Part shown: piece after piece, positions 11,008-63,129 of the stretch
How the letters are laid out: each line of letters starts with the position of its first letter
Numbering within the stretch: the first letter of the stretch is position 1
Source: Buttiauxella selenatireducens
Lineage (GTDB): Bacteria; Pseudomonadota; Gammaproteobacteria; Enterobacterales; Enterobacteriaceae
NCBI RefSeq assembly: GCF_031432975.1
Contig: NZ_CP133838.1
Location: 3,162,001 to 3,226,000, forward strand
Reading direction: 5' to 3'
Length of the DNA stretch: 64,000 nt
The notes under the pieces: generated by a model
Databases searched by the model: none
The model's input: only the letters and a program-made list of their open reading frames with translations
What the model was told of the DNA's origin: nothing
Position numbers and translations under genes: made by a program

Positions 11008-12023
11008 ATGCAAAAGAAATCCATCTACGTTGCCTACACCGGCGGTACTATCGGTATGCAGCGTTCAGAACACGGTTACATTCCTGTCTCCGGTCACTTA
11101 CAACGTCAACTGGCTTTGATGCCTGAATTCCATCGTCAGGAAATGCCTGATTTCACCATTCATGAATATCAGCCGCTGATGGACTCCTCCGACATGACGC
11201 CGGAAGACTGGCAGCACATTGCCGATGACATCAAAGCGCATTACGACGAGTACGACGGTTTCGTGATTCTTCACGGCACTGACACCATGGCATTCACCGC
11301 GTCGGCTCTGTCATTTATGCTTGAAAACCTCGGCAAACCGGTGATCGTGACTGGCTCACAGATCCCTTTGGCTGAGTTGCGTTCTGACGGGCAAATCAAC
11401 CTGCTCAATTCGTTGTATATCGCGGCCAACTTCCCCATTAACGAAGTGACGCTGTTCTTCAATAATCGTCTTTATCGCGGCAACCGCACCACCAAAGCCC
11501 ATGCCGATGGGTTTGATGCGTTCGCATCACCGAATCTTGCGCCATTACTTGAAGCCGGGATCCACATTCGACGCCTGAATACCCCAGCCGCTCCCCACGG
11601 TGAAGGTGAGCTCATCGTTCACCCGATAACGCCACAGCCCATTGGCGTTGTCACGATTTACCCGGGATTTCTGCAGATGTGGTTGGCAATTTCTTACGCC
11701 AGCCTGTTAAAGCGTTGATCCTGCGCTCTTATGGGGTGGGCAATGCCCCGCAGCACGGTGCGTTCCTCAAAGAGTTACAGGAAGCCTGTTCACGCGGCAT
11801 TGTGGTGGTAAACCTGACGCAATGTATGTCTGGTAAGGTGAATATGGGTGGTTACGCTACCGGCAATGCGCTGGCGCAGGCAGGGGTTGTTAGCGGCTAC
11901 GATATGACGGTAGAGGCGACACTGACTAAACTGCACTATCTACTCAGCCAAAATCTCGATGCACAGACTATTCGCGAGGCGATGTCACGTAATTTACGCG
12001 GTGAACTGACACCTGACGAATAA
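11008..12023 (+). pseudogene. ansA: cytoplasmic L-asparaginase I, frameshifted
   Basis: Hydrolyses asparagine to aspartate and ammonia in the cytoplasm. The reading frame from 11008 matches E. coli AnsA from MQKKSIYVAYTGGTIGM through GVVTIYPG and then goes out of frame. The match resumes in another frame with VGNFLRQPVKALIL and continues to the normal C-terminus LRGELTPDE. Comparison implies one missing base in the GG-ATTTCT stretch near 11665-11667, because the family reads YPGISADVV there. The fragments are otherwise intact and well conserved. It is either a recent inactivating mutation or a sequencing error. pncA follows after 9 bp. Confidence 0.9.
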
Positions 12024-29634: not shown

Positions 29635-30387
29635 TCAAACCCCTACGCCGCCGATATCGGGGTACTGATTAACCCGTTCGCCTCCGGAAAATCGAGGTTT
29701 GTACCCTGCCTCGAGCGTGATGACGCCTTTCGATAAAGATGACAGTTGCAGGCCCGCTCGCCTGGCCGTGCTCTCCGCCGACGCAGATAAAATGTCTGTA
29801 TTATTCAACGGATCATAGGCATCACTGAATGCAATGCTGATGTCGGTGGCTTCGTTGCACTGAATTTGAACGGTAAAGTTTGATGCGGGGATCGGGCCTG
29901 AAGCCGCATTCAGTGTCGAGACGGAGATGGTTTGCAGTGGAAAGTTCATCATTGACTCCGCCGTGTTATAGGTGTCCTTGTGCGAGCGGATTGTTCCACT
30001 GAGCGTCGAACCCCAAGTTGTGCCACTTGGGGATTCAGAACATCTGCCTTGCCAGGAGAAGGCCATTCCATTACAAAGAGCGTGGCCTTCGTTCGATAAT
30101 TAACTAGGCCATAATCTGGCTGATATGGCATTTTTATCACTTCCGCATTTCTGCCAGTCATACACAAACTTATTCTGTTGCGACTGATAAACACCTTTTT
30201 TGTAATAATTTCGGGTACAAGAAGAACTAGCTCCTGGAAGATTCGATCTGTGCCACATAGTCCAGCCTGTTTTTCTAAATGTACTGCCACTGTTATCGAC
30301 TGGCACATTCATTGCCAAAGCGGTCCCAGCCGTACAAAAAAACAATACCACGGCCATTAATGAAATTGATGCTTTTATCATATGCAA
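29635..30387 (-). pseudogene. fimbrial adhesin-like protein interrupted by an in-frame stop
   Basis: One frame from 30387 reads a signal peptide (MHMIKASISLMAVVLFFCTAGTALA) and a cysteine-containing domain up to ARLWPS, then a TAA at 30100-30102. It continues in the same frame for about 155 codons (LSNEGHALCNGMAFSW...QIQCNEATDISIAF...AGLQLSSLSKGVITL) to a stop at 29635. The downstream part has the look of a pilin-type domain of minor fimbrial subunits or adhesins. No chaperone or usher lies nearby. Probably an inactivated orphan fimbrial gene. Confidence 0.65.
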
Positions 30388-45029: not shown

Positions 45030-45816
45030 TTAACCCAACTGCACGGAAACGAACTCATCCGGGTCGGGAAGCAACATCAGTGGAGCCGATTGCGTCATGG
45101 TGAACTCCACTGCCGGGTCACCCACTTCCAGCCAGTTGCGCGGATAGCGGCTGCCACGGTCAATGCCCTCCTTCTGTGCAACCGCATCACGGATTGCGCC
45201 ATAGGTACGGATACCACGAGCAAGGGTGTTACCGAGGATCATGGTGTTGTCCGGCAGCGCTTTTTCTTTTACACCGTCAACAATTAGCTGGCCGTTGTAC
45301 ACAACGATAGCCACGTCACCAAAGCTGCCTTTGTAGGAAACAATTTTGCCCAGGTCCTTGCAGGCAGTTTCCAGTTCGGAATTAGAGCCACGGCGAGTAT
45401 CCAGCTTGTCCTGCACTTTTTTGAACGAACGGAACAACGCCCAGCCCTGCTGATCGAACACAATAAGGTCGATAACACCGGATGCATTCAGTGCATAGGA
45501 TTCAATGTCATTGGTCGGATCAAAAGTGTCTTTATTCTGCGCACTCCACGCCGCCGGCCCCACCTGAATAATGTTGTTATTCGGACTGCGCTGCATATCC
45601 ACCTCAACCGGTGAAAACTGTTCGCCTGTCATGGTGTATTTGCCGTGCAGCACCGCATCAATGCACTGTTTTTCTTCAACCTGCTGAATGGCGAGCTCTT
45701 CGTCTTTCAGGTTTTGCAAGATAAGGCGTTTACGGCGATATGACGGATCATTCAGCGCAGTCGGATCTTCATCAGGCAAACGGCGCGGAGTCATCCCAGG
45801 ATTCAGTTCATGGTTG
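45030..45816 (-). pseudogene. major capsid protein E, prophage copy lacking its 5' quarter
   Basis: Lambda gpE homologue truncated at the N-terminus. The match starts near P-N-H-E-L-N-P-G-M-T-P-R-R-L-P-D-E-D-P, equivalent to about residue 80 of lambda gpE, and runs to the normal end SAPLMLLPDPDEFVSVQLG. An in-frame TAA lies just upstream of the homology limit at about 45816. The remaining 255 codons are well conserved. The missing 5' part coincides with the edge of the satellite-like island, so the prophage cannot make its own shell protein. Confidence 0.9.
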
Positions 45817-46040
45817 GGTTACATGAGTCAATAGAGAAAGAATGTGAATGATTTTATTAGGGAAAGCCCAGATATTGCTGGCTGATAAAAACGAAACGCA
45901 ATACATGCTGCAATACACAGTTCAAACTAGCTTCTGACGGTTAGAGGTTGTATATGCACATTCCTAATTTAAAGTTCTATTGTAGGAGCATCCGCTTCCA
46001 CATGGATAAATGGTCTTTTCAAAACCTTAATGTAGGATAG
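45817..46040. other. left end of the island, non-coding
   Basis: About 220 bp between the E-gene junction and the first island gene, AT-rich. No gene or clear repeat is seen. One attachment site of the island should lie here. Confidence 0.4.
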
Positions 46041-46445
46041 ATGTATCCCACAATAAGGAATCCACCAGCCATGCGTATTACCAGCCGAAAGAAAAAGATC
46101 CTTAGCTTCTACGAACTAGAAAATCTGGAATGGATCACAGGCGAAGTGGGCGCACCTCCCCTTGATGTGTCAGGTGTCACTTACCTGCTGCATGGCATGA
46201 CCAGCTTCGACAAAAACTACCAACTGGAATCAACCAGGCGAACACTGGAAGCAATGGTGAAAGATGGACTACTGGAGCGGGTCAATGTCTATGAACGTCG
46301 ACAGAACAAATCTCAAAACGGGGATGGAGAAGGCGTTCACTGTGTAGTTGCGCGATATGGTCTGCCTGGAGGATGCAACGTAATTCGTGATGATGGTGGA
46401 AATAGACGCTCCCACATTGAAGGTGAAAGCGTCAGGATTGATTAG
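46041..46445 (+). CDS. winged-helix-like small protein of the island
   Basis: 134 residues from 46041, or 124 from 46071 (MRITSRKKKILSFYEL). The pattern ESTRRTLEAMVKDGLLERVNVYERR looks like the recognition helix and wing of a winged-helix DNA-binding domain. It is the only plus-strand gene at the left edge of the island and may regulate it. I do not recognise a named family. Confidence 0.6.
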   Translation: MYPTIRNPPAMRITSRKKKILSFYELENLEWITGEVGAPPLDVSGVTYLLHGMTSFDKNYQLESTRRTLEAMVKDGLLERVNVYERRQNKSQNGDGEGVHCVVARYGLPGGCNVIRDDGGNRRSHIEGESVRID

Positions 46446-46465
46446 CCTGTTTACAACTGCTCTGA

Positions 46466-46789
46466 CTACACTAAAGCGCGAAGCACTTCACGCATATATG
46501 CAGTAAAATATTCAGGGTTTTTAATAACAACCCGGCCTCCTGACTCAATTTTATCAGCCCATCCGGCTACTTTCTTCGTGAACCCGGTATCCCATCCCTC
46601 CTGAATACCTCGGGCATTAACATCAGCTGCGCTGGCAGGTACACCCAGCTCTTTCAGATACTTAAAAATCCCTTTAGCTGTGCTTTCATCCATCGGATGC
46701 GGTGCGGATGATGACGTGTTCATAGCGCCAATGAAGTCCAATGCTTTATCAATTACTGCTGGCATGCTCTTATCCTTAAAATTAACCAC
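46466..46789 (-). CDS. hypothetical island protein
   Basis: 107 residues (or 99 from MPAVIDKALDFIG at 46765). Soluble, alpha-helical by composition: TAKGIFKYLKELGVPASAADVNARG, then YFTAYMREVLRAL. It is the last gene of the island's packaging cluster (terS - 61 aa - this gene), so a role in packaging or capsid redirection is possible but unproven. Confidence 0.6.
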   Translation of the reverse strand: MVNFKDKSMPAVIDKALDFIGAMNTSSSAPHPMDESTAKGIFKYLKELGVPASAADVNARGIQEGWDTGFTKKVAGWADKIESGGRVVIKNPEYFTAYMREVLRALV

Positions 46790-46874
46790 GTAATAAACAA
46801 GTCTATAATATGGACCAAAATAAACCGTGATATCAAAGGGATCATTAAATTTCTATAATGATTCGTTATCCAAA

Positions 46875-47060
46875 CTACCGCGGCGGCGCTTTTCTGGCCC
46901 ATTGATACGGTTCTGCGCTCATTCGTTGACGGTGCCGTTCTTTGGCAGCCTGTGCAGAAGCAAATCGGGTGCGAACGATCAGTTTATCCTGACCATTCAA
47001 CTTATGTCCCTGTAACCGGGCCATCTCAATAAATACTTCATCAAACTTAGGTCGGCTCAT
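46875..47060 (-). CDS. small basic hypothetical protein downstream of terS
   Basis: 61 residues, strongly basic (RLQGHKLNGQDKLIVRTRFASAQAAKERHRQRM), 15 bp after the island terS stop on the same strand. Family not recognised. Small basic proteins at this place could act as packaging adaptors, but there is no direct evidence. Confidence 0.6.
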   Translation of the reverse strand: MSRPKFDEVFIEMARLQGHKLNGQDKLIVRTRFASAQAAKERHRQRMSAEPYQWARKAPPR

Positions 47061-47075
47061 TTTTATCCTTCCCTT

Positions 47076-47582
47076 TTACCTGGAGTTCAGTCGTTCATAT
47101 TCTTCGACCAGCGCAGGGATCATTACTGACAGACCGGCAGCCCTGTTCCTGGCCTTGGTGATATCCTGCTGTATTCCTTTGATGGCACGGCTGTCTAACC
47201 CGGGGTTTTTCCTCTGAACTGATAACGGTATCGTGTCCAGGATACTGGCTATTTCCCCGGTAACACGCGTTAAGATAAACCTCATAAAATCGACAGCGAT
47301 AACCTCATCCCTCTCTTTTTCGTTTTTAAGTTCCTGTGCATCAGCCTGGGCTCTGGTCAGTCTTACCCTTTCCCTGAGTAATTCCTGATCATCAATATCT
47401 TCAGCCCCCTCCACCAGCTTGCGAAGCTCGTTATCAACCCGGTTCCGGATAACCGATGCAACGTCGTACAGCGCTTCACGTCCGCGCCTTTCGGCAGGCT
47501 CTACACCCCATTTATCAAACGCAGTCACACCGATATTGCAACTGCGCGCCATGGTCTTTTTGTTAAGTAAATGTTGCGTCAT
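47076..47582 (-). CDS. island terminase small subunit (Nu1/DUF1441 type)
   Basis: 168 residues. The N-terminal winged helix LLNKKTMARSCNIGVTAFDKWGVEPAERRGREALYDV matches the prophage's own small terminase at 57900-58406, and both carry ITGE/VTGEIASILDTIPL in the C-terminal half, while the middle differs. Small terminases bind cos and choose the DNA to be packaged. A cos-like sequence lies directly upstream (47681-47766). No large terminase follows, so the island must borrow one. Confidence 0.88.
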   Translation of the reverse strand: MTQHLLNKKTMARSCNIGVTAFDKWGVEPAERRGREALYDVASVIRNRVDNELRKLVEGAEDIDDQELLRERVRLTRAQADAQELKNEKERDEVIAVDFMRFILTRVTGEIASILDTIPLSVQRKNPGLDSRAIKGIQQDITKARNRAAGLSVMIPALVEEYERLNSR

Positions 47583-47680
47583 AATTTACATTTTCATTAC
47601 TTTGTTTTTGAGTCAGGTGGGTGTATTGACGAGGGAAAATATAGTTAAATCATTACCTTAAAGAGAACAACAACACCACC

Positions 47681-47766
47681 ACCAGCTCATCAGAAATTTT
47701 CGTAAATAGCGGTATAGTGCGGGTATACATCCCCTCAGTGCGCACAAGTGCCTGGGAGGACCCGCG
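47681..47766 (-). other. cos-like packaging site of the island
   Basis: 86 bp nearly identical to 58494-58580, which lies at the same place before the prophage terS. Read on the minus strand it contains CGCTATTTACGAAAATTT, matching lambda's CGCTATTTATGAAAATTTTC next to cosN. It also contains CGCGGGTCCTCCCAGG, the likely cleavage region. The shared blocks extend well beyond coding homology. Confidence 0.75.
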
Positions 47767-47800
47767 AGGCAGGGGCGAGCCGTAGCCCTCCCCCGGATGC

Positions 47801-48184
47801 TCAGCCAAGGAATCGAAACTTCCCTGCATCAATCTGACGACGTGCCCGCGCAACCTTCTGAATGAGCGACTCACTTGGATTTGCCGGAGCATCGCAAACG
47901 TCATAATGACTGCGGCGCGGGATATTATTAATCCATGAGACAATCTCGCTCAGTAGCCAGGCGGTACGACCAGGGGTCACCTGTACACGCTCCGGAAACT
48001 CCCCACGTTCCTCCATATCAAGCAACGTTCGGCGGCTGAGGGTGGTAATCTCCATTGCCATCTTCATATCAACCAGGCGCTCAGCTAACGCCATCTCATC
48101 TGCAATACGGCCCAGCTCCTGCACTGAAGTATCATTTGCTGCTTGTGGTTTTTTGCCCACGATTACGGTTTGTTCGAATGACAT
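47801..48184 (-). CDS. AlpA-like DNA-binding protein
   Basis: 127 residues. The segment MKMAMEITTLSRRTLLDMEERGEFPERVQ followed by GRTAWLLSEIVSWINN is an AlpA-type winged helix. In Gram-negative PICIs and P4-like elements AlpA proteins control excision and replication genes. It lies between the decoration gene and cos-terS, so it may control the morphogenetic cluster. Confidence 0.8.
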   Translation of the reverse strand: MSFEQTVIVGKKPQAANDTSVQELGRIADEMALAERLVDMKMAMEITTLSRRTLLDMEERGEFPERVQVTPGRTAWLLSEIVSWINNIPRRSHYDVCDAPANPSESLIQKVARARRQIDAGKFRFLG

Positions 48185-48192
48185 GACTTACC

Positions 48193-48534
48193 TCACACGG
48201 CTGAAAGGGGTTGAACAGAAATACCGGAGCCAGCAAATGCGGCCACGCGCTGACTTAGCGTGCTGACCGTTTCAGGCCAGTTCAGCGCATCGACATTCAG
48301 AACGCCGCATTTATAAACCTGCGCCTGTGATTTTGAATCTGTATCCACGCTGAAAGTTGATACATAGATAGCCTTTCCCACCTTAGCGCCGTCATATACC
48401 ACCAGCGCCCCGCTTTCTTCATCGAGCATCAGAGGAGACAAAGCAGGGATGACACCATTACCCGGTGAGAATATCCCCAGCGTGGTTACAAGCGCCTCTG
48501 TGCCGGCAACCAGTTCAGTACCTTGAAATGACAT
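48193..48534 (-). CDS. head decoration protein (lambda gpD-like)
   Basis: 113 residues, lambda gpD length class. Features: GTEALVTTLGIFSPGNGVIPALSPLMLD, GKAIYVSTFSVD and VYKCGVLNVDALNWP. It would form trimers that stabilise the expanded shell made by the neighbouring capsid protein. It sits 9 bp downstream of the capsid gene, the reverse of the lambda order (D before E). Confidence 0.85.
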   Translation of the reverse strand: MSFQGTELVAGTEALVTTLGIFSPGNGVIPALSPLMLDEESGALVVYDGAKVGKAIYVSTFSVDTDSKSQAQVYKCGVLNVDALNWPETVSTLSQRVAAFAGSGISVQPLSAV

Positions 48535-48543
48535 TGGTTCTCC

Positions 48544-49590
48544 TTACGCCACACGAACGGTGACAAAGCGGTTGATACGCGCGGGGATTGGTTGAGGAGC
48601 TGAGTGTGTCTGCACATACTCAATGGCTGGGTCGCCGGGAACGATATAATTTTTAGGGGCCATAGCAGCACGGACAATGCCCTGTCGTACCAGTTCAGGA
48701 TCCTGAATTGCACCGTAAGCAACAATCCCCTGCAGGCTCGTATTAGCCAGAACCATTAAATCCGGGTCGAGGAAGTATTCTTCTTCGCCTTCTTCATTGG
48801 TGAATTTACCGCTATAAACCACAATTGCCGTATCACCCGTGTAACCTTTGAAACTGACGCTGTCCCCCAAATCTTTGAGTGCCGTTTCCAGACGGGAATT
48901 TGAGCCGCGACGGGTATCAAGGGTATCTTTCGTTGATTTGAAAGAACGGTATTTTTTCCAGACATTCCCTCCCATAACAATGATATTTGTTACACCTTCA
49001 CTGAGCTCTGCGTAACTTTCAATATCATCATTCGGGTCGAAAGTTTCTGTATTTTGGGCCGACCACGCAGCATCACCAGCCTGGATAATGTTATTTACTG
49101 GTTTCATTTTCCAGTCGATTTCATAGCGTTCAATCCCTTCGCCTTCAATAACATTCTTCCCTGTGGTAATAGCCTTTACTGCCAGCCATTCAATACGAGC
49201 CCTGATTGCCTGAGACTGATTAACCATGGCACGCTTAACCTTAATTTTTCGCGCATCATATGCGTCAAATTTTTCCGGCGGCATGTTAGCAGGACGAATA
49301 GCCAGCTTTTCAGGGTCAATGCTACTTTTCGGTTTCATATACCCTGGGCGTATGGTTTTCGATTCATAACCTTCATCACGTGCGACACGGCTACCAACCA
49401 TTGGAGAGCAGAACGCAGCCATCGGGATATCAGGATCATCAATCATATCCAGTGCAATATCACGGGTTCCAAACGTCACAGAACGAGAGAAAAACAAATC
49501 TGTGAATAATGTTTTTAAAAGCTTCTGCACATCCTCTGTATTTACGACTTGCAGCATAGTCGCAGGAGAATAGGTGTTAGACATAAACAC
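48544..49590 (-). CDS. island major capsid protein (lambda gpE family)
   Basis: 348 residues, full length for the lambda E family. Shares with the prophage E fragment the blocks NNIIQ-x-G-AAWSAQN, TLDTRRGSNS-LETA-KDLG and GDPAIEY-x-TH-SAP, but is clearly diverged, and its N-terminus (SNTYSPATMLQVVN) is intact. It probably replaces the helper shell protein with an island-encoded one. A second start 6 nt downstream (MSNTYS) is equally possible. Confidence 0.9.
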   Translation of the reverse strand: MFMSNTYSPATMLQVVNTEDVQKLLKTLFTDLFFSRSVTFGTRDIALDMIDDPDIPMAAFCSPMVGSRVARDEGYESKTIRPGYMKPKSSIDPEKLAIRPANMPPEKFDAYDARKIKVKRAMVNQSQAIRARIEWLAVKAITTGKNVIEGEGIERYEIDWKMKPVNNIIQAGDAAWSAQNTETFDPNDDIESYAELSEGVTNIIVMGGNVWKKYRSFKSTKDTLDTRRGSNSRLETALKDLGDSVSFKGYTGDTAIVVYSGKFTNEEGEEEYFLDPDLMVLANTSLQGIVAYGAIQDPELVRQGIVRAAMAPKNYIVPGDPAIEYVQTHSAPQPIPARINRFVTVRVA

Positions 49591-49821
49591 TCCGGGTAAG
49601 GGGTAAAAAGATTATATTTTTCGATTAAGCCTGCACTATATTACACCTATCTGCACAGGTTGTATTATTCGCGTTTGTATAATGCGGTATAAAATATCTA
49701 AGGCGCTTCAAATAAAATGCAGCTCTGTTATTCTTGACCTGGTTGTTGTGTCGATATTCTCATAAGATCCTCCTGTATTATAATCAAAAGCGGGGCAACC
49801 CGCTTTCTTTCACCACCAGCC

Positions 49822-50499
49822 TCATTGCTTCTGCGACTTTATCGTTTCTGGTTTATGACTCAGTACATGACGATCCAGAGTAAACCGATAGCACTCCTCA
49901 TTACTCTTTCTTAAATACATCGTTGCTGACTCTCGCCCTCCACAGTCCGAGATGAATTTCGCATCTGCGAGAATAGCGGCCCGTGCGATATAGTCAGTCG
50001 AGTAGGCGGCGAGAATGAACGGCAGGACAAATAATACAAGAGAAAATTGAATGAGCTGACCAGCCTTCATGAACTTTGATTTTTCTATCGATGCCTTCAC
50101 CCCATGAGGTAAAATAATGCGCGCAGGCTCCATCAAAATGCTTAAAGCACCAAACATTCCGGTAGCAATAACAATGAACATATAGGCTATACAGATGGAA
50201 ACTGGCACAGCGAGTATATAAGGTGAAAACTTCAAATAATCTTCATCTATGCCGGTTGTGAAGCTCAGAATTTTCAGTGAGAAAATATAAGATACGAACC
50301 AGATAACCACATTGTAGAATTTTATGGTAAAGGCACTTTTCATCAGTTCCAGAAATAATTGCCGTTCTTTATATGCCATATAGCCACAGTAAAGAAAAAT
50401 CAACAAATATGCAGTGTATATATGCCCCTGGCTTATCAGTATCAATTCCAGCGTCATAACAATAATGAGTATCAAATTTTCCCGGGTAAATCTCTTCAT
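49822..50499 (-). CDS. multi-pass membrane protein of unknown function
   Basis: About 225 residues from MKRFTRENLILIIVM with AGGAACGCG upstream. Four or five hydrophobic segments: about 9-30, 60-85, 100-130 and 165-185. The C-terminus is soluble and contains SDCGGRESATMYLRKSNEECY. It lies between the capsid gene and the replication origin of the island. No family recognised; superinfection exclusion or another accessory role is conceivable. Confidence 0.65.
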   Translation of the reverse strand: MKRFTRENLILIIVMTLELILISQGHIYTAYLLIFLYCGYMAYKERQLFLELMKSAFTIKFYNVVIWFVSYIFSLKILSFTTGIDEDYLKFSPYILAVPVSICIAYMFIVIATGMFGALSILMEPARIILPHGVKASIEKSKFMKAGQLIQFSLVLFVLPFILAAYSTDYIARAAILADAKFISDCGGRESATMYLRKSNEECYRFTLDRHVLSHKPETIKSQKQ

Positions 50500-50610
50500 C
50501 GCGTTCCTGCCTTCTGTTTTTTTGTCCATTCGGTTCAAATGCCATTCTGAACACTTTCCCAACAAACCAGTTTCAAAACCACCCCCAAGAATTAAAAATT
50601 ATGCGTTTAA

Positions 50611-50840
50611 GTGTTCACCTGTTCACCTTTCACTTTTTAACCATTAAAATCATACTGTTAAGTGGTGAACACTTCAGATTTAAGTATTCACTGGTGTTCA
50701 CCCAACCCTTCACCTTTCAGGCCAAATAACAGATAAAGGGTGAACAGGTGAACACTTGGTGAATACTTCATAAATAAGTGTTCACCCCTTAACATACTGT
50801 TATTAATTAATTTTTTAACAGGGTGAACAGTGGTGAACAC
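50611..50840. other. iteron array, probable replication origin of the island
   Basis: Nine exact copies of GGTGAACA(G/C) in both orientations: GGTGAAC-forward at 50664, 50739, 50747, 50822 and 50832; inverted at 50611, 50619, 50694 and 50778; plus a one-mismatch copy at 50758. Phage P4 alpha protein binds GGTGAACAG-type iterons in its ori and crr regions. An AT-rich stretch (about 50787-50820) lies inside. The helicase gene that would bind it ends 15 bp away. Confidence 0.85.
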
Positions 50841-50854
50841 TTTTCCTATAACTA

Positions 50855-52621
50855 TTACTCTGCCACCTCATTATTTGAAACTGCACATGATGGTAGCCAG
50901 TCTTCCGAATCATCGTTGAGGGTAACGTTGGACCTTATCCCCGCCTTCGTCTTTCGCTTCTGGTACTCCTTGCCATACTCAGCCATTGCCCCTGGCATAT
51001 CAGTACCAAACCGCATCAGAGACACCGGCTTACTCAGACCATTGGCCCGCATGTACGCCAGGTAAGCGTGGTACAGATACCGGCGGGGGCTGAATGGCAC
51101 TATTTCGGCATTACCGATAAACATCCCGTCACACACTACCGACGCCATGAGAGAGCCGCAAAAGTCCACCAGCGAATCACCCTCGCGTTTGATGGCCAGC
51201 GCTTCTTCTGATTTCTGCTGCTCATGCAAAAGCCGTCTTGCTTCATCCTGGTCAGCAAAGCGCGTCAGAAGATGACGAATCACCACAGCCAGCTCGCCTT
51301 CTATGTTTTCGGCTAACAGTGGGTCACGTTCGTTTTCCGGTACCACCTCAGAGAAATTGAAAATGACCCTGCGCCGGGAAATTCCGCCGCTGCGGTCGCT
51401 GAATGTCATGGCGTTGTTGTTAACAGCAAGCACCACCGCTGGTATACGCGTGGAATATGGCGCTTTATGTTTCGGGTCGATGGAAACCTTATCTCCCCCG
51501 GTGATGGCCTTAATACCTGCGCCATCTCCGGCATAACGGGTCATGTCCGGCATGATGATGAGCGAATACCCCACCACCAGCGCCCTTTCCCGTGGTTCTT
51601 CCAGTGCCTTCATGCTGGCAGAGACCGTGTTGGCTTTACCCGCAAGCATGGTACAAACCTCAGCCATAACACTTTTGCCACTACCACCAGGGCCTGTGAC
51701 CTCAAGAAATAACTGCCAGTCGTACCGGTTCGCCATCACCATATACAGGGCCGCCAGCACACGATCTGCTTTACGGTCATTATTTGCCACCGAACTGCGT
51801 AACCATTTCCAGAAACTCGGGGCATGGCTGACCAGTGTTTCCCCTTCGGCTGGTGGGCTGAACGGTAATTCACTGGCTATAAGTAACCAGTCACCCTTAC
51901 CGTGAGGACGAAACTCCCCTGTACGGGTATCAAAAACACCATTGCTAAAGCCAATCAGGTTTCGGGCTGTTATCCCCATCACCGGCAAGCTCAATTTCAT
52001 GGTTTCAACCGCCGACTTGATAGCGTTCTGGGAATAGGCCACCTCCGCATCAATGAAGATCTGCGCCATTTCGCGCTGCAGTTCTTTATCAGCAAGGGGA
52101 AGCCAGATAACACCGTTGTAATGATGAACCGTGTCAGAATCGCCATGAATCGCCAGGTTACCATCATAGTGCGCCAGTAAAACCTCACCCCGCTGGCTCG
52201 CCCCCATTTGATTAAGTGCCGGGGTTGTGCCGTTTCCCTTAACAACAATCAAAGGCTCAATTTCCATCCGGGTCAGTAGGCTCGTCCAGTCTTCTTTCTC
52301 TCCATCCTCTTTAATGAACTCGGCATTAGTTACGCCAGCGTCATGCAGTTTGTTGGCTATCAAATTGAGATGATTTTGTGCCACCAGCCCCGCCTGGTAG
52401 ATTCGGGCAAATCGACGGCCCTTATCCACTATTCGCAGGTTTGCCAGCTCAGCCAGTTGGTTATGATCCAGAATAACCGGAGGTATTGTGTCACCGTGTT
52501 CACCCTGGTCTTTCTGATATGCTTCTGCCGCTTTCCAGGCCCCTGTACCTACAAAGATAATGGCCTCTTCCATTTTGTCGCGGGGTAATGTCTTAACATT
52601 CGGCGCCAGTTTCAGTTTCAC
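50855..52621 (-). CDS. P4 alpha-like replicative helicase (primase-helicase family)
   Basis: 588 residues. Superfamily III helicase domain with Walker A GPGGSGKS at 310-317, Walker B-like SLIIMPDM at about 353-360 and the following NNNAMTFSDRSGGISRRR sensor/arginine region. P4 alpha (about 777 residues) also has an N-terminal primase with a zinc finger; this protein is shorter and I cannot see those motifs, so it may be helicase plus origin-binding only. The C-terminus would bind the adjacent iterons. Confidence 0.88.
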   Translation of the reverse strand: MKLKLAPNVKTLPRDKMEEAIIFVGTGAWKAAEAYQKDQGEHGDTIPPVILDHNQLAELANLRIVDKGRRFARIYQAGLVAQNHLNLIANKLHDAGVTNAEFIKEDGEKEDWTSLLTRMEIEPLIVVKGNGTTPALNQMGASQRGEVLLAHYDGNLAIHGDSDTVHHYNGVIWLPLADKELQREMAQIFIDAEVAYSQNAIKSAVETMKLSLPVMGITARNLIGFSNGVFDTRTGEFRPHGKGDWLLIASELPFSPPAEGETLVSHAPSFWKWLRSSVANNDRKADRVLAALYMVMANRYDWQLFLEVTGPGGSGKSVMAEVCTMLAGKANTVSASMKALEEPRERALVVGYSLIIMPDMTRYAGDGAGIKAITGGDKVSIDPKHKAPYSTRIPAVVLAVNNNAMTFSDRSGGISRRRVIFNFSEVVPENERDPLLAENIEGELAVVIRHLLTRFADQDEARRLLHEQQKSEEALAIKREGDSLVDFCGSLMASVVCDGMFIGNAEIVPFSPRRYLYHAYLAYMRANGLSKPVSLMRFGTDMPGAMAEYGKEYQKRKTKAGIRSNVTLNDDSEDWLPSCAVSNNEVAE

Positions 52622-52893
52622 TGTTTCGCCCTCCCCGCTGTGATCAGCTCTCTCAGCTTCTGGATTTTCTCGGCGGCATTATTTGCCTTGTGCCATTCAC
52701 TGAACGTCTGACGCTTTACCGGGCTGAATTCACTTTCAAAACGTGCAGCCGGGAAAACACACTCCCCTGAATAGCCAGTACGAACAAAGCAGATGCGGTT
52801 ATGAGATACGCTTTTCACTGTTACATGCTCACCGCGCTTATCTTTGAAAATATCGCCAGGCAGGATCTGATTGCTTTTGATTGGGTAGCTCAT
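52618..52893 (-). CDS. DUF4222-like phage protein
   Basis: 91 residues with the pattern ILPGDIFKDKRGEHVTVKSVSHNRICFVRTGYSGECVFPAARFESEF, typical of DUF4222 proteins of enterobacterial prophages. Function unknown. It overlaps the helicase start and the upstream gene by 4 nt each, so it belongs to the replication operon. Confidence 0.75.
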   Translation of the reverse strand: MSYPIKSNQILPGDIFKDKRGEHVTVKSVSHNRICFVRTGYSGECVFPAARFESEFSPVKRQTFSEWHKANNAAEKIQKLRELITAGRAKQ

Positions 52894-53186
52894 AGCTTTC
52901 TCCCCTGGTTACGCTTTGCAAATTCAAGATCCTCATGAGCGGCATCAATACCTTCAATCAAAGCGGTCGTGGTCTGTAACATCAGGCCTATGGTACGAAG
53001 GCATGCCTCAGCGTCCTCGCCTTCAATACGTTCATTACCGCTAGCCGCCCAAAACATCAGGTCACCAATAGCACCAAGCCCTGCGATGAGGTTTTCTTTA
53101 GTTACAGAGGCAACGTTGCAGTATTGCTCCACATCTGCACGGCTGGCGTTGTGCATACTCTTTATTAATGAGGATGGGCTAAGCAT
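52890..53186 (-). CDS. hypothetical island protein of the replication operon
   Basis: 98 residues, helical (VEQYCNVASVTKENLIAGLGAIGDLMFWAASG...LRTIGLMLQTTTALIEGID). Overlaps its neighbours by a few nt. A family of small phage proteins with this layout is common in prophages; function unknown. Confidence 0.65.
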   Translation of the reverse strand: MLSPSSLIKSMHNASRADVEQYCNVASVTKENLIAGLGAIGDLMFWAASGNERIEGEDAEACLRTIGLMLQTTTALIEGIDAAHEDLEFAKRNQGRKL

Positions 53187-53367
53187 GTTGCACCTCGCTA
53201 GCTGCTTTCAGTTCGCGAACGCGAGTCAAAACAATATCAACCAGTTCGAAAATTATTTGGCGTCCTTGCTCACTTTCACTGTTCAAATACAGAGATGCTG
53301 AAAGCAAAGCCTCTATGCACCGCAACTCATCTTCAATATCGACATACGCCCAGTTGATACTACCCAT
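53179..53367 (-). CDS. small acidic hypothetical protein
   Basis: 62 residues (INWAYVDIEDELRCIEALLSASLYLNSES). Overlaps the Icd-like gene upstream and the 98-residue gene downstream by 8 nt, so it belongs to the same transcript. Family not recognised. Confidence 0.6.
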   Translation of the reverse strand: MGSINWAYVDIEDELRCIEALLSASLYLNSESEQGRQIIFELVDIVLTRVRELKAASEVQHA

Positions 53368-53548
53368 AGCGAACCTCCTGTACTGGCAGACGGCCAGCGA
53401 AGACCATCACGCAGCCAGCCGGGGATAACTCACGGGCTTCGTGTTCAGTAGTGGCGTTGATGTGAATGATATTGCGCCCTAAAGCACTCAGTGCCAGAAA
53501 ACGCCATGTGAATTTAGGGTGAGTTTGGGTATGCTGTTTATCAGCCAT
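53360..53548 (-). CDS. Icd-like (host cell division inhibitor family) protein
   Basis: 62 residues from MADKQHTQTHPKF. The block FTWRFLALSALGRNIIHINATTEHEARELSPAGCVMVFAGRLPVQEV is the conserved Icd/Ash-like sequence found in P1-, P4- and prophage immunity regions, where its translation is controlled by a c4-type antisense RNA. A matching RNA hairpin lies just upstream. A longer reading frame up to 53680 would run through that hairpin and is not favoured. Confidence 0.78.
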   Translation of the reverse strand: MADKQHTQTHPKFTWRFLALSALGRNIIHINATTEHEARELSPAGCVMVFAGRLPVQEVRYG

Positions 53549-53578
53549 AACTGTTACTCCGATTAACGGTTTGGTTAG

Positions 53579-53611
53579 ACGCCTCGGCAGTGTTCCCGCA
53601 CTTCGAGGCGT
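53579..53611 (-). ncRNA. c4/CI-type immunity RNA hairpin (candidate)
   Basis: Perfect 8-bp stem ACGCCTCG/CGAGGCGT enclosing GAAGTGCGGGAACACTG-type loop sequence on the minus strand, about 30 nt before the Icd-like start. P1/P7 c4 and P4 CI RNAs are small antisense RNAs at exactly this place. Only the core hairpin is given; the full transcript ends are not defined. Confidence 0.5.
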
Positions 53612-53680
53612 TGTTTTTAAGTACACCACCATGCTAATGTATGTACCTATTAATGGGAATCTTATAAAATAGGTACACAC

Positions 53681-53875
53681 ATGTCAACGGTTATTCAAAG
53701 AGATAAACAGCCCAAAGGCGCAGGGAAAGCTCCGGCATTTCAGATACGGATTCCCCCTGAACTAAAAGACCAAATGAATGAAGCCGCTGCACGTGAAGGC
53801 ATGAGTCTGGGAAACTGGATAAAAGAATTAGCGCGAGCTGAATTAATAAAACAAGGAATTACCCCCAAAGGTTAA
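53681..53875 (+). CDS. ribbon-helix-helix (Arc/MetJ type) DNA-binding protein
   Basis: 64 residues with the Arc-like core APAFQIRIPPELKDQMNEAAAREGMSLGNWIKELARAEL. Likely a repressor of the divergent early operon, at whose head it sits. The cargo gene follows 21 bp downstream on the same strand. Confidence 0.8.
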   Translation: MSTVIQRDKQPKGAGKAPAFQIRIPPELKDQMNEAAAREGMSLGNWIKELARAELIKQGITPKG

Positions 53876-53896
53876 TAATTTCATTGGAGTAAATAA

Positions 53897-55246
53897 ATGC
53901 TAAATAACATGAAGTTATTGGAAATAAATAAAGAACAGTTCGAAATTTATTCCTATGGCCGTTATCCATATGTCAAAACTTTTTCCGAAGAAATTTGTTG
54001 GTTTAAATTTGAAGAGAATGAAATCACACTCTTAGCAACGATTGTATATTGTAAAATCGATAAAGATTTTAATGCTATTTTTTTAGGCAGAGATTTAAAC
54101 AAAAAATTCCGAGCTATAAAGGTAATGGTCTCTTTCGAATCAAAGGATGATTTGATTTCCGAAATGAATGCCTGTATACCTCAATTGCTTTCACAGCATA
54201 ACAATGGTTTATTTATGCAAGGCGATGAGGCATCAGAAACATTTTCTATTTTCCTATCAAAAGTCCCTGATCACAAAAAGAATATATATCTTAAAATGCT
54301 ACTTGAAGAACCAAAACACTACCCTGCTTACATTGTAATGCAGGAATTAGCTTACTGGTTTAAAGATCCCGATGGAATATTTATACGAGATTTTCAGAGC
54401 GCATCATTCAATTCAAGATTATTCGAGTTATACCTAAATGCTATTTTTTACGAAATGGATTTTGAGATAAATAGAAGCCATGCTCAACCAGACTACATGA
54501 TATCTAAATCTGGTATCGAAATTGCTGTTGAAGCAGTAACAATTGGTGAAATGGAGGAGCCTGCAAACAAACTCATCTTGGATGAACAAGGGTTTGAAAA
54601 CCTCCAATCCTATGTTAAACAACAAATGCCATTTAAATTTGCTCGCACCTTATTAAATAAAGTTAGACATAGGCCTGAACCATTAAAACTATGTTACTGG
54701 GAGCTGGAGCACACTCAAGACAAACCATTCATGATCGCAATTCACGATTATTCAAGACGGATGTCAATGAGTTTTTCTATGCCCGCACTTCAAAGTTATC
54801 TTTATGGAATGGACTCTGAATCAGGAACTCGAATCGAGCAACATTATTTTGAGAGTAGAAGTATTCAGTCTAACTTTTTTGGGTCAAAAAAAAATGAGAA
54901 TGTTTCAGCCATCCTACTAGCCACAAATGCTACCATTCCTAAATTCGACAGAATGGGAATAATAGCTGGAATTGAACAACACAACGTTAAAACGCTCATT
55001 CGCGGGGTAAAAACTGATGATGATTGTACACCGATTCCATTTATTGCTGATGTAAGTGACCCCTCATATGAAGAGCCATGGTGCACTGCGGCATACATGT
55101 TTCACAATCCAAACGCATTGAAACCTATTTACCCAGGCTTATTCCCAAATGTCGTTCATGTTTTTTTAGAACATGGGGAATTGTTACAATACTACCCTCC
55201 AAATTACATTCTTACATCAACGACACAAGTGTTTGAGTTTGAATAA
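53897..55246 (+). CDS. cargo gene: PD-(D/E)XK nuclease-like protein of unknown function
   Basis: 449 residues, markedly AT-rich with codon use unlike the packaging genes. The central segment ASFNSRLFELYLNAIFYEMDF (E177) is followed by QPDYMISKSG (P198-D199) and IEIAVEAVT (E212). This spacing resembles the E...PD...E-x-(A/K) core of restriction-endonuclease-like nucleases, although the usual lysine is replaced. No signal peptide or membrane segment. It lies between the regulators and the integrase, the usual cargo slot of satellites where anti-phage genes sit. Function is not established. Confidence 0.7.
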   Translation: MLNNMKLLEINKEQFEIYSYGRYPYVKTFSEEICWFKFEENEITLLATIVYCKIDKDFNAIFLGRDLNKKFRAIKVMVSFESKDDLISEMNACIPQLLSQHNNGLFMQGDEASETFSIFLSKVPDHKKNIYLKMLLEEPKHYPAYIVMQELAYWFKDPDGIFIRDFQSASFNSRLFELYLNAIFYEMDFEINRSHAQPDYMISKSGIEIAVEAVTIGEMEEPANKLILDEQGFENLQSYVKQQMPFKFARTLLNKVRHRPEPLKLCYWELEHTQDKPFMIAIHDYSRRMSMSFSMPALQSYLYGMDSESGTRIEQHYFESRSIQSNFFGSKKNENVSAILLATNATIPKFDRMGIIAGIEQHNVKTLIRGVKTDDDCTPIPFIADVSDPSYEEPWCTAAYMFHNPNALKPIYPGLFPNVVHVFLEHGELLQYYPPNYILTSTTQVFEFE

Positions 55247-55330
55247 AATATATCCTATGGGATAAAACCCATAGGTTTCATAAGTGAACAAGCCACTTTC
55301 AAATCACATCTGAATCGCATCGCGTCGTCT

Positions 55331-55549
55331 TTATTTAATTTTAGTGGCTTCTCGTTGTTTATCCAACCAGCTTTTAACATCATCAGGATACCAAGCATTT
55401 CGCCTCCCTATCTTAAAAGGTTGCAGAAAATCGTTACGCTGATCTTTAATAAAAGCATAAAAAGCACTCATTGCCTCATAACGAAGCTCAGCCATTACTT
55501 CCTTTGTAAACATTATATTTGCATTCATATCTATATTAACCTCAGTCAT
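55331..55549 (-). CDS. AlpA-like excisionase
   Basis: 72 residues (about 65 from MNANIMFTKEVM). The segment FLQPFKIGRRNAWYPDDVKSWLDKQR resembles the wing and C-terminal helix of AlpA/Xis winged-helix proteins. It overlaps the integrase end by 8 nt, a normal xis-int layout, and would direct excision and induction of the island. Confidence 0.65.
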   Translation of the reverse strand: MTEVNIDMNANIMFTKEVMAELRYEAMSAFYAFIKDQRNDFLQPFKIGRRNAWYPDDVKSWLDKQREATKIK

Positions 55550-56774
55550 TAACTACTTTTAAACCTTTGAAACCATTGGAACGTTTAACGATACCTTTTC
55601 TTGCAGAATCAATAAAATCGCCAATCCATTGCATCACTATTTTTCTTTGTTCAAAGTACGTTGTTCTATTATAAACCCCGCGAATTGCATCACTATTTTT
55701 ATGCGCCAACGCCGCTTCAATAACATCTGGATTAAACCCTTCTTCATTCAATAGTGTACTCCACATGGCACGAAACCCATGAGCAGTAGCCACACCAGCG
55801 AAAGGTCCCTCCAGAAAATATTTGTGCCGTAAAGCTTTAGATATAGCTTGCTGTGGTTTTCTATCTGAATAGAAAACAAACTCACCATATTTATGTTTTC
55901 TCATTTCATTAAGGATAAACATGGCCTGACTTGATAATGGAACAACATGCTCCCTCCCTGTTTTCATTCTTTCTGCTGGTATAATCCATTCCTTATTTTG
56001 AACGTTAATCTCAGCCCACCTCGCTTCACGCGCTTCCCGTGGCCTAACCATAGTTAATATTTGAAATAGAAGGGAGTTTTTCATAGCCACATAATCATGA
56101 CCATCCCACCACACGAGAAAAGCCGGCAGTTGTTCTAAGGGTAATGCTGCCAATGGCGTATCTTTTTTAACTGCAAATGCTTTTTTTATTTTTGATAGTG
56201 GATTGCCGCTTATCAATCCAATATTTACACAATAATTCATAATTTCATTTAACTTAGAAATTATTTTCATCTGAATAGCTGGCCTGTCATTATATTTACC
56301 CAATGAGTGAATAACGCCAGGTGCCTTTATCGTATTAATATTCTCATGACCAATTAAAGGAATGATGTGTCTCTTGACGATAAATTCTATCGTATCTTTT
56401 GTTGACTGCCTTAATTGGCTGCCCATTTTTAATTCGAGCCAGTTAAGTGCAACACTCTTCACGTTCTGAAGATGTTTAGCCCTCACCTCAGCCCGTTTTT
56501 CATTTCTATGTTCTGAAGGATCAACTCCTCTCGAAAGCATCCTTCTAAGCTCTTCGCGCACTTCCCTTGCTTCCGTTAGAGTAAAATAGGGAAAACGCCC
56601 AATTGTATATGTCTGACGTCGCTTGGTTACTGGGTGTGGATATCTATACCGCCAAGATTTTCCGCCAGCCTTTGATACATACAAAAGCAGACCGAAACCA
56701 TCGTGCAAGGAATAATCTTTTTCTCTCGGCCTTGCGTTTTTGACTTCCGAGGCGGTGAGCGGTTTTATAGACAT
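55542..56774 (-). CDS. P4-type tyrosine integrase
   Basis: About 410 residues from MSIKPLTASEVKNARP (an upstream ATG at 56822 would add 16). The N-terminal DUF4102 arm-binding domain (GFGLLLYVSKAGGKSWRYRY, YTIGRFPYFTLTEAR) precedes the catalytic domain: R244 in TMVRPREAREARW, H332 and R335 in AHGFRAMW, H358 in ALAHKN, and the nucleophile Y373 in NRTTYFEQRK. P4-type integrases usually use tRNA or ssrA 3' ends. Here the gene sits about 165 bp from a broken phage terminase gene. Confidence 0.93.
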   Translation of the reverse strand: MSIKPLTASEVKNARPREKDYSLHDGFGLLLYVSKAGGKSWRYRYPHPVTKRRQTYTIGRFPYFTLTEAREVREELRRMLSRGVDPSEHRNEKRAEVRAKHLQNVKSVALNWLELKMGSQLRQSTKDTIEFIVKRHIIPLIGHENINTIKAPGVIHSLGKYNDRPAIQMKIISKLNEIMNYCVNIGLISGNPLSKIKKAFAVKKDTPLAALPLEQLPAFLVWWDGHDYVAMKNSLLFQILTMVRPREAREARWAEINVQNKEWIIPAERMKTGREHVVPLSSQAMFILNEMRKHKYGEFVFYSDRKPQQAISKALRHKYFLEGPFAGVATAHGFRAMWSTLLNEEGFNPDVIEAALAHKNSDAIRGVYNRTTYFEQRKIVMQWIGDFIDSARKGIVKRSNGFKGLKVVND

Positions 56775-56938
56775 GGTAACTCCATCAAACTGACTTAATT
56801 CTGGGGCCATTTCTAGTCCCATTTATTCGATAAATAAAGATAAAAGGGGGTAAAACAAAAGTAATAGAGGATGATTAATTCAGCATATCTTTATGAAATC
56901 GATAACAAACATAAAAAAACATCACAAAACAATGACTA

Positions 56939-57928
56939 CTATGCACTCCAGATATGAAAGGCGATATTTTTCGGAGGGGCGATTTCGTAACCAGCTGAAC
57001 TCAGCCAACGAATACCATCCTCAGTCCGGATACCGGTGTAATCGCACACATAACGTGCACCTGTGTAATCCAGCTCATGCTGGCGAATAACGCAGCCGTT
57101 ATGCTCGCAAAGGTAATAAACGCTGTCCGGCTGCCCCCTGTCCCACTTGAAACCAAAGGGAGTGTCTTTTTCGCCGAATTTTAGGTGCTGATACTGCTCG
57201 CAGTGCGGGCACCGGATTTGAAAACGCATCATATGTGGCGATTCACTGGCCGCCTTCTCCATCTGGCACTGACCTTTGATTTTCGGTGTGGAGCCACGAA
57301 TACTTTTTGGCCAGACAGAGCCTTCAACACGTTTATCGCCCAGCGATATTGGGGAACCTTCGCCTTCGATATCATTGTCAAACGATGACAGCTCATCAAA
57401 CGCCACCACGTCTACAGATTTGGCGCGGTAGTTTTTGGCTGACTTCCCCCCAAGGCAGCGCAGGCTTCTGCCGTTACTGAAACTTTTCAGGGTAATGGTG
57501 TTGTCTTTGTGCTTTTTGCCATACCAGGGCGCGAGGGCCAGTAACGGAGGGACGTCGCGGATAGTCGGCGTCACATCCACTTTCATGAAGTCTTTTGCAT
57601 CATCGTCTGTCGGGAGCCAGGTGATAATGCTTCGCTGTTTGTGGGCGATGAAATACGCCTGCACGCCGAAGAGCATTTTTGAATAACCAACACGCGCGGA
57701 CTTAATCAGGTTTACGCGTTGAACATCGTCCGACCCCATCGTATTAATAATGGCTTTCTGGTATGGAAGGGTTTCCCACCGCCCTTCCTGATAGTTATTT
57801 TCCTTTGGCAGATAGTAATGCTCATCCACCCATTCGACGGCTGTCAGCTCTTCGGGTTTGAATAATCCGATCAGCCCATCGTTAACAGCGACGCCGATGT
57901 TATTTATCAGTGCTGTTGAGGTATTCAT
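56939..57928 (-). pseudogene. terminase large subunit (lambda gpA-like), C-terminal half missing
   Basis: 329 codons that match lambda gpA from its N-terminus to about half length. The ATPase region is present: Walker-A-like LIKSARVGYSKM, Walker B VDVVAFDELSSFDND, and zinc-type CPHCEQYQHLKFG. The match ends at PPKNIAFHIWSA followed by a stop, whereas lambda continues AYSPFTTW. The whole nuclease domain that cuts cos is therefore lost. The start overlaps terS by about 29 nt, as Nu1 and A do in lambda. Confidence 0.92.
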
Positions 57929-58406
57929 TTAGTAGAGAGGGAACCAGGTCTCCGGTTTTGGCAGCGATATTACGCGCCTTGATGATTTCATTTTTCAGGT
58001 GGTCAATGTGCCGTTTTTCCAGCCCCGGAAATTTCCGCTGATAAGCCAGAGGAATGGTGTCGAGAATGCTGGCCACTTCCCCGGTGATTTTAATCAACAC
58101 GAAAGTGCAAAATGCCGTATCGACCAGTAATGCCTCTTTCCGGGCGTTTTCTCTTTCCAGTTCGTCAGCCTGCGCTTTGAGTAAACGGTGGCGTTCGAAC
58201 TTGATGTCTTCGTCAAGTTCTTCCCCGGTACTTTCTTTTTTTTGGGCATCGCCCTGATACAACAACCGGTTATTCAGCACACTTCGGACGTCGTATAACG
58301 CTTCTCGCCCCCGCCTTTCTGATGGTTCAACACCCCATTTATCAAAGGCTTGCACTGAAATATGCAGACTGGCAGCCATGTCTTTTTTGTTGAGGTAAAT
58401 GCTCAT
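57900..58406 (-). CDS. prophage terminase small subunit (Nu1/DUF1441 type)
   Basis: 168 residues from MSIYLNKKDMAASLHISVQAFDKWGVEPSERRGREALYDV. Same length and N-terminal winged helix as the island's small terminase, with a different middle coiled region (GEELDEDIKFERHRLLKAQADELERENARKEA). It recognises cos, which lies 90-170 bp upstream. A longer frame reaching 58619 runs through the cos-like sequence and is not favoured. Confidence 0.92.
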   Translation of the reverse strand: MSIYLNKKDMAASLHISVQAFDKWGVEPSERRGREALYDVRSVLNNRLLYQGDAQKKESTGEELDEDIKFERHRLLKAQADELERENARKEALLVDTAFCTFVLIKITGEVASILDTIPLAYQRKFPGLEKRHIDHLKNEIIKARNIAAKTGDLVPSLLNEYLNSTDK

Positions 58407-58493
58407 GAAAGTGCTCTTTTCAGGGGGCTGGTTGGTGTATTTTTTTGCGAAAGCCGCGCACCGCAAGGGCTGGAGGGAAACAACTAAACAACA

Positions 58494-58580
58494 ACCAGCT
58501 TTCTCAGAAATTTTCGTAAATAGCGGGAGCCTGCGGGTATACATCCCCTCAGTGCGCGCAGGCGCCTGGGAGGACCCGCG
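58494..58580 (-). other. cos-like packaging site of the prophage
   Basis: Read on the minus strand: CGCGGGTCCTCCCAGG, then a GTATAC-containing stretch and CGCTATTTACGAAAATTT, the last matching lambda's sequence beside cosN. It lies upstream of terS, where lambda has cos. Nearly identical to 47681-47766. Confidence 0.75.
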
Positions 58581-63052: not shown

Positions 63053-63129
63053 TGGACCGCCATCGAGGTCTTGAACCCCGCTCCCTACAACAAAATGGTC
63101 GCTTGCTCTTCCTGATGAGCTAATGGCGG
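63053..63129 (-). tRNA. tRNA-like gene with degenerate anticodon arm
   Basis: 77 nt on the minus strand with an encoded CCA end. Acceptor stem CCGCCAT/ATGGCGG (7 of 7 pairs), D stem GCTC/GAGC, T arm CGGGG-TTCAAGA-CCTCG (one G-U), discriminator U. The anticodon arm pairs best as GCGAC/GTTGT with only six nt (CATTTT) in the loop, so the anticodon cannot be read with certainty (UUU is the nearest guess). It is either a tRNA pseudogene or a tRNA mimic. Located in the prophage, where phage tRNAs are common. Confidence 0.6.

Follow-up and report, generated by a model that had tools for sequence, protein, structure and literature searches.

An island within the head operon of a lambdoid prophage

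The DNA considered here is a stretch of 64,000 nucleotides from Buttiauxella selenatireducens (contig NZ_CP133838.1, positions 3,162,001 to 3,226,000), called the window below, and our subject is an island at window 45821–56946 that lies inside a lambdoid prophage; its ends were set by comparison with an empty prophage. The island is a satellite of the gram-negative phage-inducible chromosomal island (PICI) type, and its body is of the helper-embedded PICI (HE-PICI) type, with ends that are unusual. It has the integrase, alpA and primase genes, the 10–20 kb size and the helper-matching cos by which gram-negative PICIs are recognised, the first of its AlpA genes being assigned weakly. A first-pass annotation, made from the sequence alone, had described a satellite in a prophage head operon and had put its ends at 45816 and 56938, 5 and 8 bp from those used here; that description was borne out, as the flanks are the helper late genes terL and E.

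On the minus strand, the order is integrase, AlpA1, Icd-like, DUF4222, primase, iterons, membrane-type protein, E, D, AlpA2, cos-like site, small terminase (TerS) and small genes, and the zones run as in HE-PICIs: integration, Bro/immunity, replication, late. The integrase and primase share the strand of both flanking helper late genes, i.e., the island sits co-oriented in the late operon, again as in HE-PICIs, and a defence cargo gene and a ribbon-helix-helix (RHH) regulator are oriented opposite to the rest.

Profile searches confirmed each of the integrase, helicase, E, D and Nu1 modules that the annotation had named (features are on the minus strand unless noted). The tyrosine integrase (55542–56822, 426 aa; Phage_integrase and Arm-DNA-bind_3) belongs to a lineage that we call X. 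AlpA1 (55331–55549), the regulator in the AlpA position of the integrase module, has a weak PHROG excisionase match (E 0.004) and no Pfam match; the AlpA assignment held for AlpA2 (47801–48184; Phage_AlpA, phrog_2790) and not for AlpA1. The proposed Icd/c4 immunity likewise stood in part: the Icd-like gene of the immunity/Bro zone (53360–53680) matches NF033153 of NCBIfam (E 2e-16) and phrog_1743, and Rfam gave no C4 RNA at E≤1. A C4 immunity RNA was rejected, the MIR395 matches lying on the iterons and those to SymR and SpR08 falling far below gathering scores. The D5/P4-type primase-helicase (50855–52621, 588 aa), identified by a profile match, adjoins a probable replication origin (50612–50839, both strands) made up of the claimed iterons, with nine copies of GGTGAACA there versus six elsewhere in the 64 kb.

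The late zone holds the major capsid protein E (48544–49590; Phage_cap_E), the decoration protein D (48193–48534; HDPD) and a Nu1-type TerS (47076–47582; Phage_Nu1, E 5e-28). Capsid-forming PICIs carry their own capsid, portal, protease and terminase set; the capsid and terminase genes of the island are E, D and TerS only. Its claimed lack of large terminase, portal, protease and tail was upheld by tblastn, which found none of λ A, B, C, FI, FII, Z, U and V inside the island. The claimed cos-like site is also present (47666–47766), with 86% identity over 102 bp to a helper block at 58479–58580. The island's block has short matches to the λ cos end, and a 26-bp piece of it has just two occurrences in the 5.2 Mb genome, one in each block, with up to three mismatches allowed.

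The two ends lie in different helper genes

In HE-PICIs both ends lie in one target gene; here one is in terL, at codon ~328, and the other in E. On one side, the lambdoid head region has the helper cos-like site, the helper TerS (57900–58466; Phage_Nu1) and the start of TerL to codon ~329 (56939–57928, 329 codons), helper DNA ending at 56947 and the last codons and stop lying past the junction. On the other side is helper E from codon 80 (45030–45820; λ E residues 80–341, tblastn 45818–45033), which is 98.8–99.5% identical in DNA and 100% in protein to the intact E of L216 and L303 (L numbers denote loci, G numbers genomes).

Locus L216, a viral contig, is the empty prophage. It matches the window at 98.9% over 58824–56947 and at 99.5% over 45820–44453, its TerL (642 aa) and E (341 aa) are intact, and between the two matches it has 4,637 bp that are missing from the window, holding the terL C-part, W, B, C, D and the E N-part. 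L303, in genome G009, which is listed as the same species, is the same empty prophage (98.9% and 98.8%). L303 and L216 do not differ over 12,987 bp (100% identity), so they represent one empty prophage seen twice and are counted as one case. A search of the window's genome, made with no positive control, did not find the deleted segment, and the sole Phage_portal_2 gene found in that genome is in another prophage, 2 Mb away. A weak match to λ C (protease) at 10000–10578 (25% identity, tblastn) was not counted as the prophage's head protease because it is outside the stretch shared with the empty prophage, which begins at ~27.3 kb.

Genome searches covered samples of the family (343 genomes) or order (394), and 12 genomes of the genus; a second set of viral loci was also assembled (80 of 114 kept). 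No further terL insertions were found among the viral relatives or in the order sample. TerL extends beyond residue 600 in 79 of the 80 viral relatives (that of L224 being split over two frames; L250 ends at 527), and the terL open frames of 19 other genome relatives are 639–704 aa, one with an internal TAG. A plasmid search led no further than a 9% patch at 72%.

The E-side end and the family of satellite E proteins

HE-PICIs, as described by Tommasini, Mageeney and Williams (2023; PMC10111431), number 491 elements, are most often at E:Phage_cap_E:80, and have an attP core flanked on both sides by a doubled TGTATTGC motif. The E-side end of the island is of this kind. The attR core of an E-site (Phage_cap_E:80) HE-PICI is at 45811–45824, with place and spacing as in L021, and the empty E site can be read in L216. 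A perfect doubled attP-arm motif, TGTATTGC-N4-TGTATTGC, follows at 45898–45917, 77 bp from the core (76 in L021). It is the window's one perfect copy; otherwise there are two matches with three mismatches, on the other strand at 30268 and 59455, and the core is not flanked by two copies. With up to two mismatches allowed, two copies are present in all 38 viral loci in which both ends were classed, L092 among them. In genome G027, two exact doubled motifs lie 47 kb apart (G027:C1:212302 and G027:C1:259472), with TerL close by at 261598; the pair possibly marks a very long embedded element or a nested prophage.

A scan of viral contigs for E gave 87 relatives, of which 80 were kept. D is next to E in all 80 of these loci, which were selected for E, and AlpA2 adjoins in 79. 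When the ends were classed with λ E and B, 29 loci had both E halves, eight both portal halves and one, L092, portal plus E; a single end was classed in 19 and neither in 23. (The run also took in L021, a duplicate of L058, and three chromosomal loci.) The E-D cassette is found both in satellites that occupy the helper's capsid gene E (at codon ~80) or its portal gene B and in chromosomal PICIs. The E-D-AlpA string of the chromosomal PICIs L019 and L020 adjoins a sigma-70 factor gene and so is not left over from full-length prophages. The annotation had suggested looking for the gene string outside prophages, and had conceded that homologues confined to full-length prophages would undo the satellite reading. 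L019 and L020 are chromosomal, beside sigma-70 and uracil-DNA-glycosylase-family genes (Pfam) that we take to be rpoD and mug, and λ A, B and C were not found in L163 and L164, which overlap them; the gene string thus exists outside prophages, and the condition that would have undone the satellite reading does not hold.

The satellite E is 75–78% identical to the E proteins of other satellites versus 38–45% to other E proteins found in the family, and on this evidence capture of E from the present helper was rejected.

The integrase is of a second lineage

The window's integrase shares 50% identity with that of L131 and about 24% with those of HE-PICIs. A tree of 26 integrases pairs it with L131 (support 100/100), groups it with tRNA- and tmRNA-site integrases, and sets it apart from the HE-PICI and fis-site group, i.e., outside the HE-PICI clade. 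AlpA1 is 46% identical to the AlpA-position gene of L131. Integrases that are 37–40% identical adjoin tRNA-Pro, tRNA-Phe or tmRNA in 18 of the 20 loci scanned, the exceptions being L131 and L139. L131, from a draft genome, interrupts gene 6 after its first few codons in a prophage that resembles SEN34 (Salmonella) and Omnitron (Citrobacter), the other gene 6 half being on a separate contig. Three viral contigs, L210, L211 and L212, encode integrases 99% identical to L131's, have flanks 94, 96 and 89% identical to Omnitron, respectively, and retain both gene 6 halves, 12.4–13.1 kb apart. They hold complete satellites of 12.4–13.1 kb embedded in gene 6 (L299, L300 and L301; G713, G714 and G715), with an integrase, an AlpA-position gene, an 893–923 aa primase (DUF927 and Toprim by Pfam) and a DUF2280 gene that has 74–78% DNA identity over 158–238 bp to Omnitron's. 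The DUF2280 gene is probably a small terminase, since its L160 homologue is directly before the large terminase. L300 has tail-like genes as well. The right-hand tail genes of L160 were considered as the end of another mismatched element and rejected, because they belong to the satellite. L128 and L139 were not borne out as further embedded cases, and among phage records the best match to the integrase was 39%.

In L210–L212, attL is GCATATCTGTACC-TTATGC, with the left arm GCATATCTG, and attR is GCATTCCTGTACC-GGATGC, which gives a 7-bp core, CTGTACC. The integrase-proximal, attL-like junction of the window in terL (56938–56960) contains CATATCTG, as do lineage-X att sites, and in the same register as the gene-6 site. 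Among 144,612 helper 24-mers, 38 match the gene-6 site as well as the terL junction does, and at least one of these is the terL site itself. This gives moderate evidence that the integrase side of the island is a true lineage-X junction. The integrases closest to the window's belong to satellites lodged in a head gene of SEN34/Omnitron-like prophages, so that embedding in helpers has probably evolved in a second integrase lineage. Searches of an open-access library turned up no description of a second embedding lineage, or of satellite hybrids.

A comparable mismatched element

L092 (2700–14300) is a satellite with the portal N-part at one end and the E C-part at the other. Its first 11,882 bp are 98.5–98.7% identical to portal-site (B-site) HE-PICIs and its 12–14 kb part is 96.7–96.9% identical to E-site HE-PICIs, with the portal-type match stopping just past AlpA2 (11461–11790). 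The portal C-part, protease, helper D and E N-part are absent. L092 may be another hybrid, or an assembly chimera.

Origin of the island

We propose, with a probability of about 0.73, that the island is a hybrid of two helper-embedded satellites, of the terL and E sites, joined by one crossover that deleted the helper head genes between them. Two non-cognate ends call for two integrations at two sites. A lambdoid helper prophage would have gained an HE-PICI in capsid gene E (Phage_cap_E:80), and a second satellite, of integrase lineage X, would have entered the large terminase gene, both co-oriented with the late genes. A single crossover between the satellites, either within one prophage or between two helper copies carrying one each, would have linked the integrase end of one satellite with the attR end of its partner and removed 4,637 bp of helper DNA, from the terL C-part through W, portal B, protease C and D to the E N-part. 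The two junctions, the empty prophage, the extent of the loss, the perfect motif on the E side alone and the integrase lineage are observed; the sequence of events, the crossover and its position are what we infer. From 46.3 kb downwards and into E, the window and the E-site element L055 are colinear, and DNA tiling against related loci puts the integrase-side boundary at 55278–55331, with HE-PICI-like DNA starting at 55278 and the integrase/AlpA1 module beyond 55331; the crossover would therefore fall in the interval from ~46.3 to 55.33 kb, the AlpA1 boundary being the simplest place for it. Because the ends are non-cognate, neither integrase would be expected to excise the island precisely. 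The prophage would make no heads, and the satellite, which keeps its primase, iterons, cos, TerS, E and D, would move only with another lambdoid phage supplying terminase, portal and tail.

Several results weigh against this origin. A prophage carrying both parent satellites was not found. No lineage-X satellite was found in terL elsewhere, the window's genome standing alone among 394 in the order search at E≤1e-98, and the family search of 343 genomes gave one integrase relative at 50%, the rest being at ≤40%. The terL att core is deduced from an 8-mer and has no attR partner. A single exact motif copy also occurs in five other genomes of the 343, in a search for exact copies only, and for that reason one copy was rejected as diagnostic by itself. 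L092, a record from IMG/VR, has its terL in two frames, and its join was not seen in E. coli complete genomes, where the top-ranked of 4,525 matching records covers 82% in three pieces over 17.4 kb; L092 could therefore be an assembly chimera.

The same concern bears on the window. Two complete satellites, at terL and E, might have been merged by the assembler and the DNA between them dropped; long similar stretches are common to related satellites, and such a join is present in the public record L092. We consider a collapse of this kind unlikely in the window's genome, which is one contig of 5.2 Mb in which the lost segment was not found (the search having no positive control) and in which the sole Phage_portal_2 gene found belongs to another prophage. 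A different route to the same map is that an E-site HE-PICI lost its left end along with neighbouring helper genes, that an integrase-AlpA module from a tRNA-type island was pasted in through illegitimate recombination, and that the terL junction is a random breakpoint. The tRNA or tmRNA neighbours of the 37–40% identical integrases (18 of 20 loci), and a body that is HE-PICI-like right up to 55278, are in keeping with this route. It is nonetheless doubtful, given that the terL junction has the lineage-X att 8-mer in register (38 of 144,612) and that the nearest integrase relatives (L131, L210–L212) are all in a prophage head gene.

The annotation had offered a functional reading, a reduced or intermediate capsid-forming PICI whose hybrid head would combine its own shell with the portal and terminase of the helper. 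The satellite does carry an E, a D, a TerS and a cos-like site of its own, and this E is of a satellite lineage (75–78% within, 38–45% outside). But the prophage lacks a portal, a lambda-type protease and half of terL and so could not supply them to the satellite, and PICI capsid genes are stated to be not required for transfer (PMC10111431). We regard the hybrid head as very improbable, and deletion accounts better than design for the absence of the helper genes. The status of an intermediate was ruled out in turn by the lack of portal and lambda-type protease and by an E-D cassette that is ordinary in these satellites; the embedded arrangement had already been published, as the HE-PICI.

Relation to known satellites

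The closest described elements are the HE-PICIs at E:Phage_cap_E:80, e.g., 11capE of E. coli NRG857c (PMC10111431), which share with the island the helper E codon, the E-side doubled motif and its spacing, and likewise are co-oriented with the late genes, have their own E, share cos with the helper and keep the four-zone order. The island differs in having an integrase from outside the clade, no second motif, its other end in terL, and a loss of 4,637 bp of helper DNA. EcCICFT073, a gram-negative PICI (PMC6092414), is like the island an int-alpA-primase satellite with a cos used by λ-type helpers, and differs in residing at a chromosomal site, from where it acts in trans on its helper (PMC10111431). 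The lineage-X satellites L299–L301 (with L160/L194) resemble the island in integrase (50%), AlpA-position gene (46–48%), placement inside a head gene, co-orientation with that gene and CATATCTG at the att site; they differ in helper family and target gene, in having both ends in the same gene, in their 893–923 aa DUF927/Toprim primase versus 588 aa, and in having no E or D by tblastn. L023, an E. coli fis-site PICI found between fis and yhdJ, has a primase with 78% DNA identity to that of the window. L023 and L022 are of a type that we take to be the capsid-forming PICIs, with an HK97-type set of portal, protease or capsid, both terminases and head connectors, whereas the island has λ-type E, D and TerS only. 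L022 (LR881103.1) is a record of 16.5 kb that is described as an "induced prophage" and carries a phage name; its integrase is nearly identical to L023's and its gene set is satellite-like (integrase, primase, portal, capsid, terminases), with one gene annotated as tape measure. P4-like satellites have the sid, delta and psu capsid-redirecting and activating genes; our comparison with them covered integrase type and primase.

Cargo and other features

Next to the integrase module is a PD-T7-1-type anti-phage defence gene (53897–55246, plus strand; PADLOC PD-T7-1, 506 bits), which recurs in four of the 80 viral loci (L061, L065, L125 and L126, 74–75%), together with a small RHH/HicB-type regulator (53681–53875, plus strand). 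A further cargo gene (49822–50499) encodes a membrane protein, predicted by eye and without a confident family. Near attR is a small satellite gene with no function assigned (46041–46445, plus strand), which is near attR in L055 too and also present in L052 and L091. Another small gene is common to related satellites (46875–47060; phrog_7271; L019, L055, L059 and others). Between these two lies a cargo gene of family DUF1889 (46466–46789; Pfam E 1e-51), presumably YoaC-like. The host genome has a second copy at 81% DNA identity, and a chromosomal match is present in 10 of the 12 genus genomes searched, its own included. In L020, a DUF1889 gene is near the PICI integrase and adjoins an acyltransferase gene; that placement led us to reject DUF1889 as a sign of the insertion site. 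Outside the island, an ARAGORN tRNA call at 63053–63129 has an incomplete anticodon and is probably spurious.

Significance

Published helper-embedded satellites come from one integrase clade. We lean slightly towards the broader view that embedded satellites act as portable homology in late operons, such that a crossover of two in one helper type strips the head genes between them and freezes a hybrid, and that helper embedding evolved at least twice, in the published HE-PICI clade and in an independent P4/tRNA-type lineage that targets lambdoid terL and an SEN34/Omnitron-like head gene. If the second embedding lineage is true, helper embedding would be a repeated evolutionary outcome and could be tested as such. 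The hybrid would be a concrete route by which satellites turn their helpers into defective prophages, and by this route satellites could become fixed as immobile defence islands; the window's island carries the PD-T7-1-type gene. It would also offer an explanation for prophages whose head genes have been replaced by a satellite with mismatched ends.

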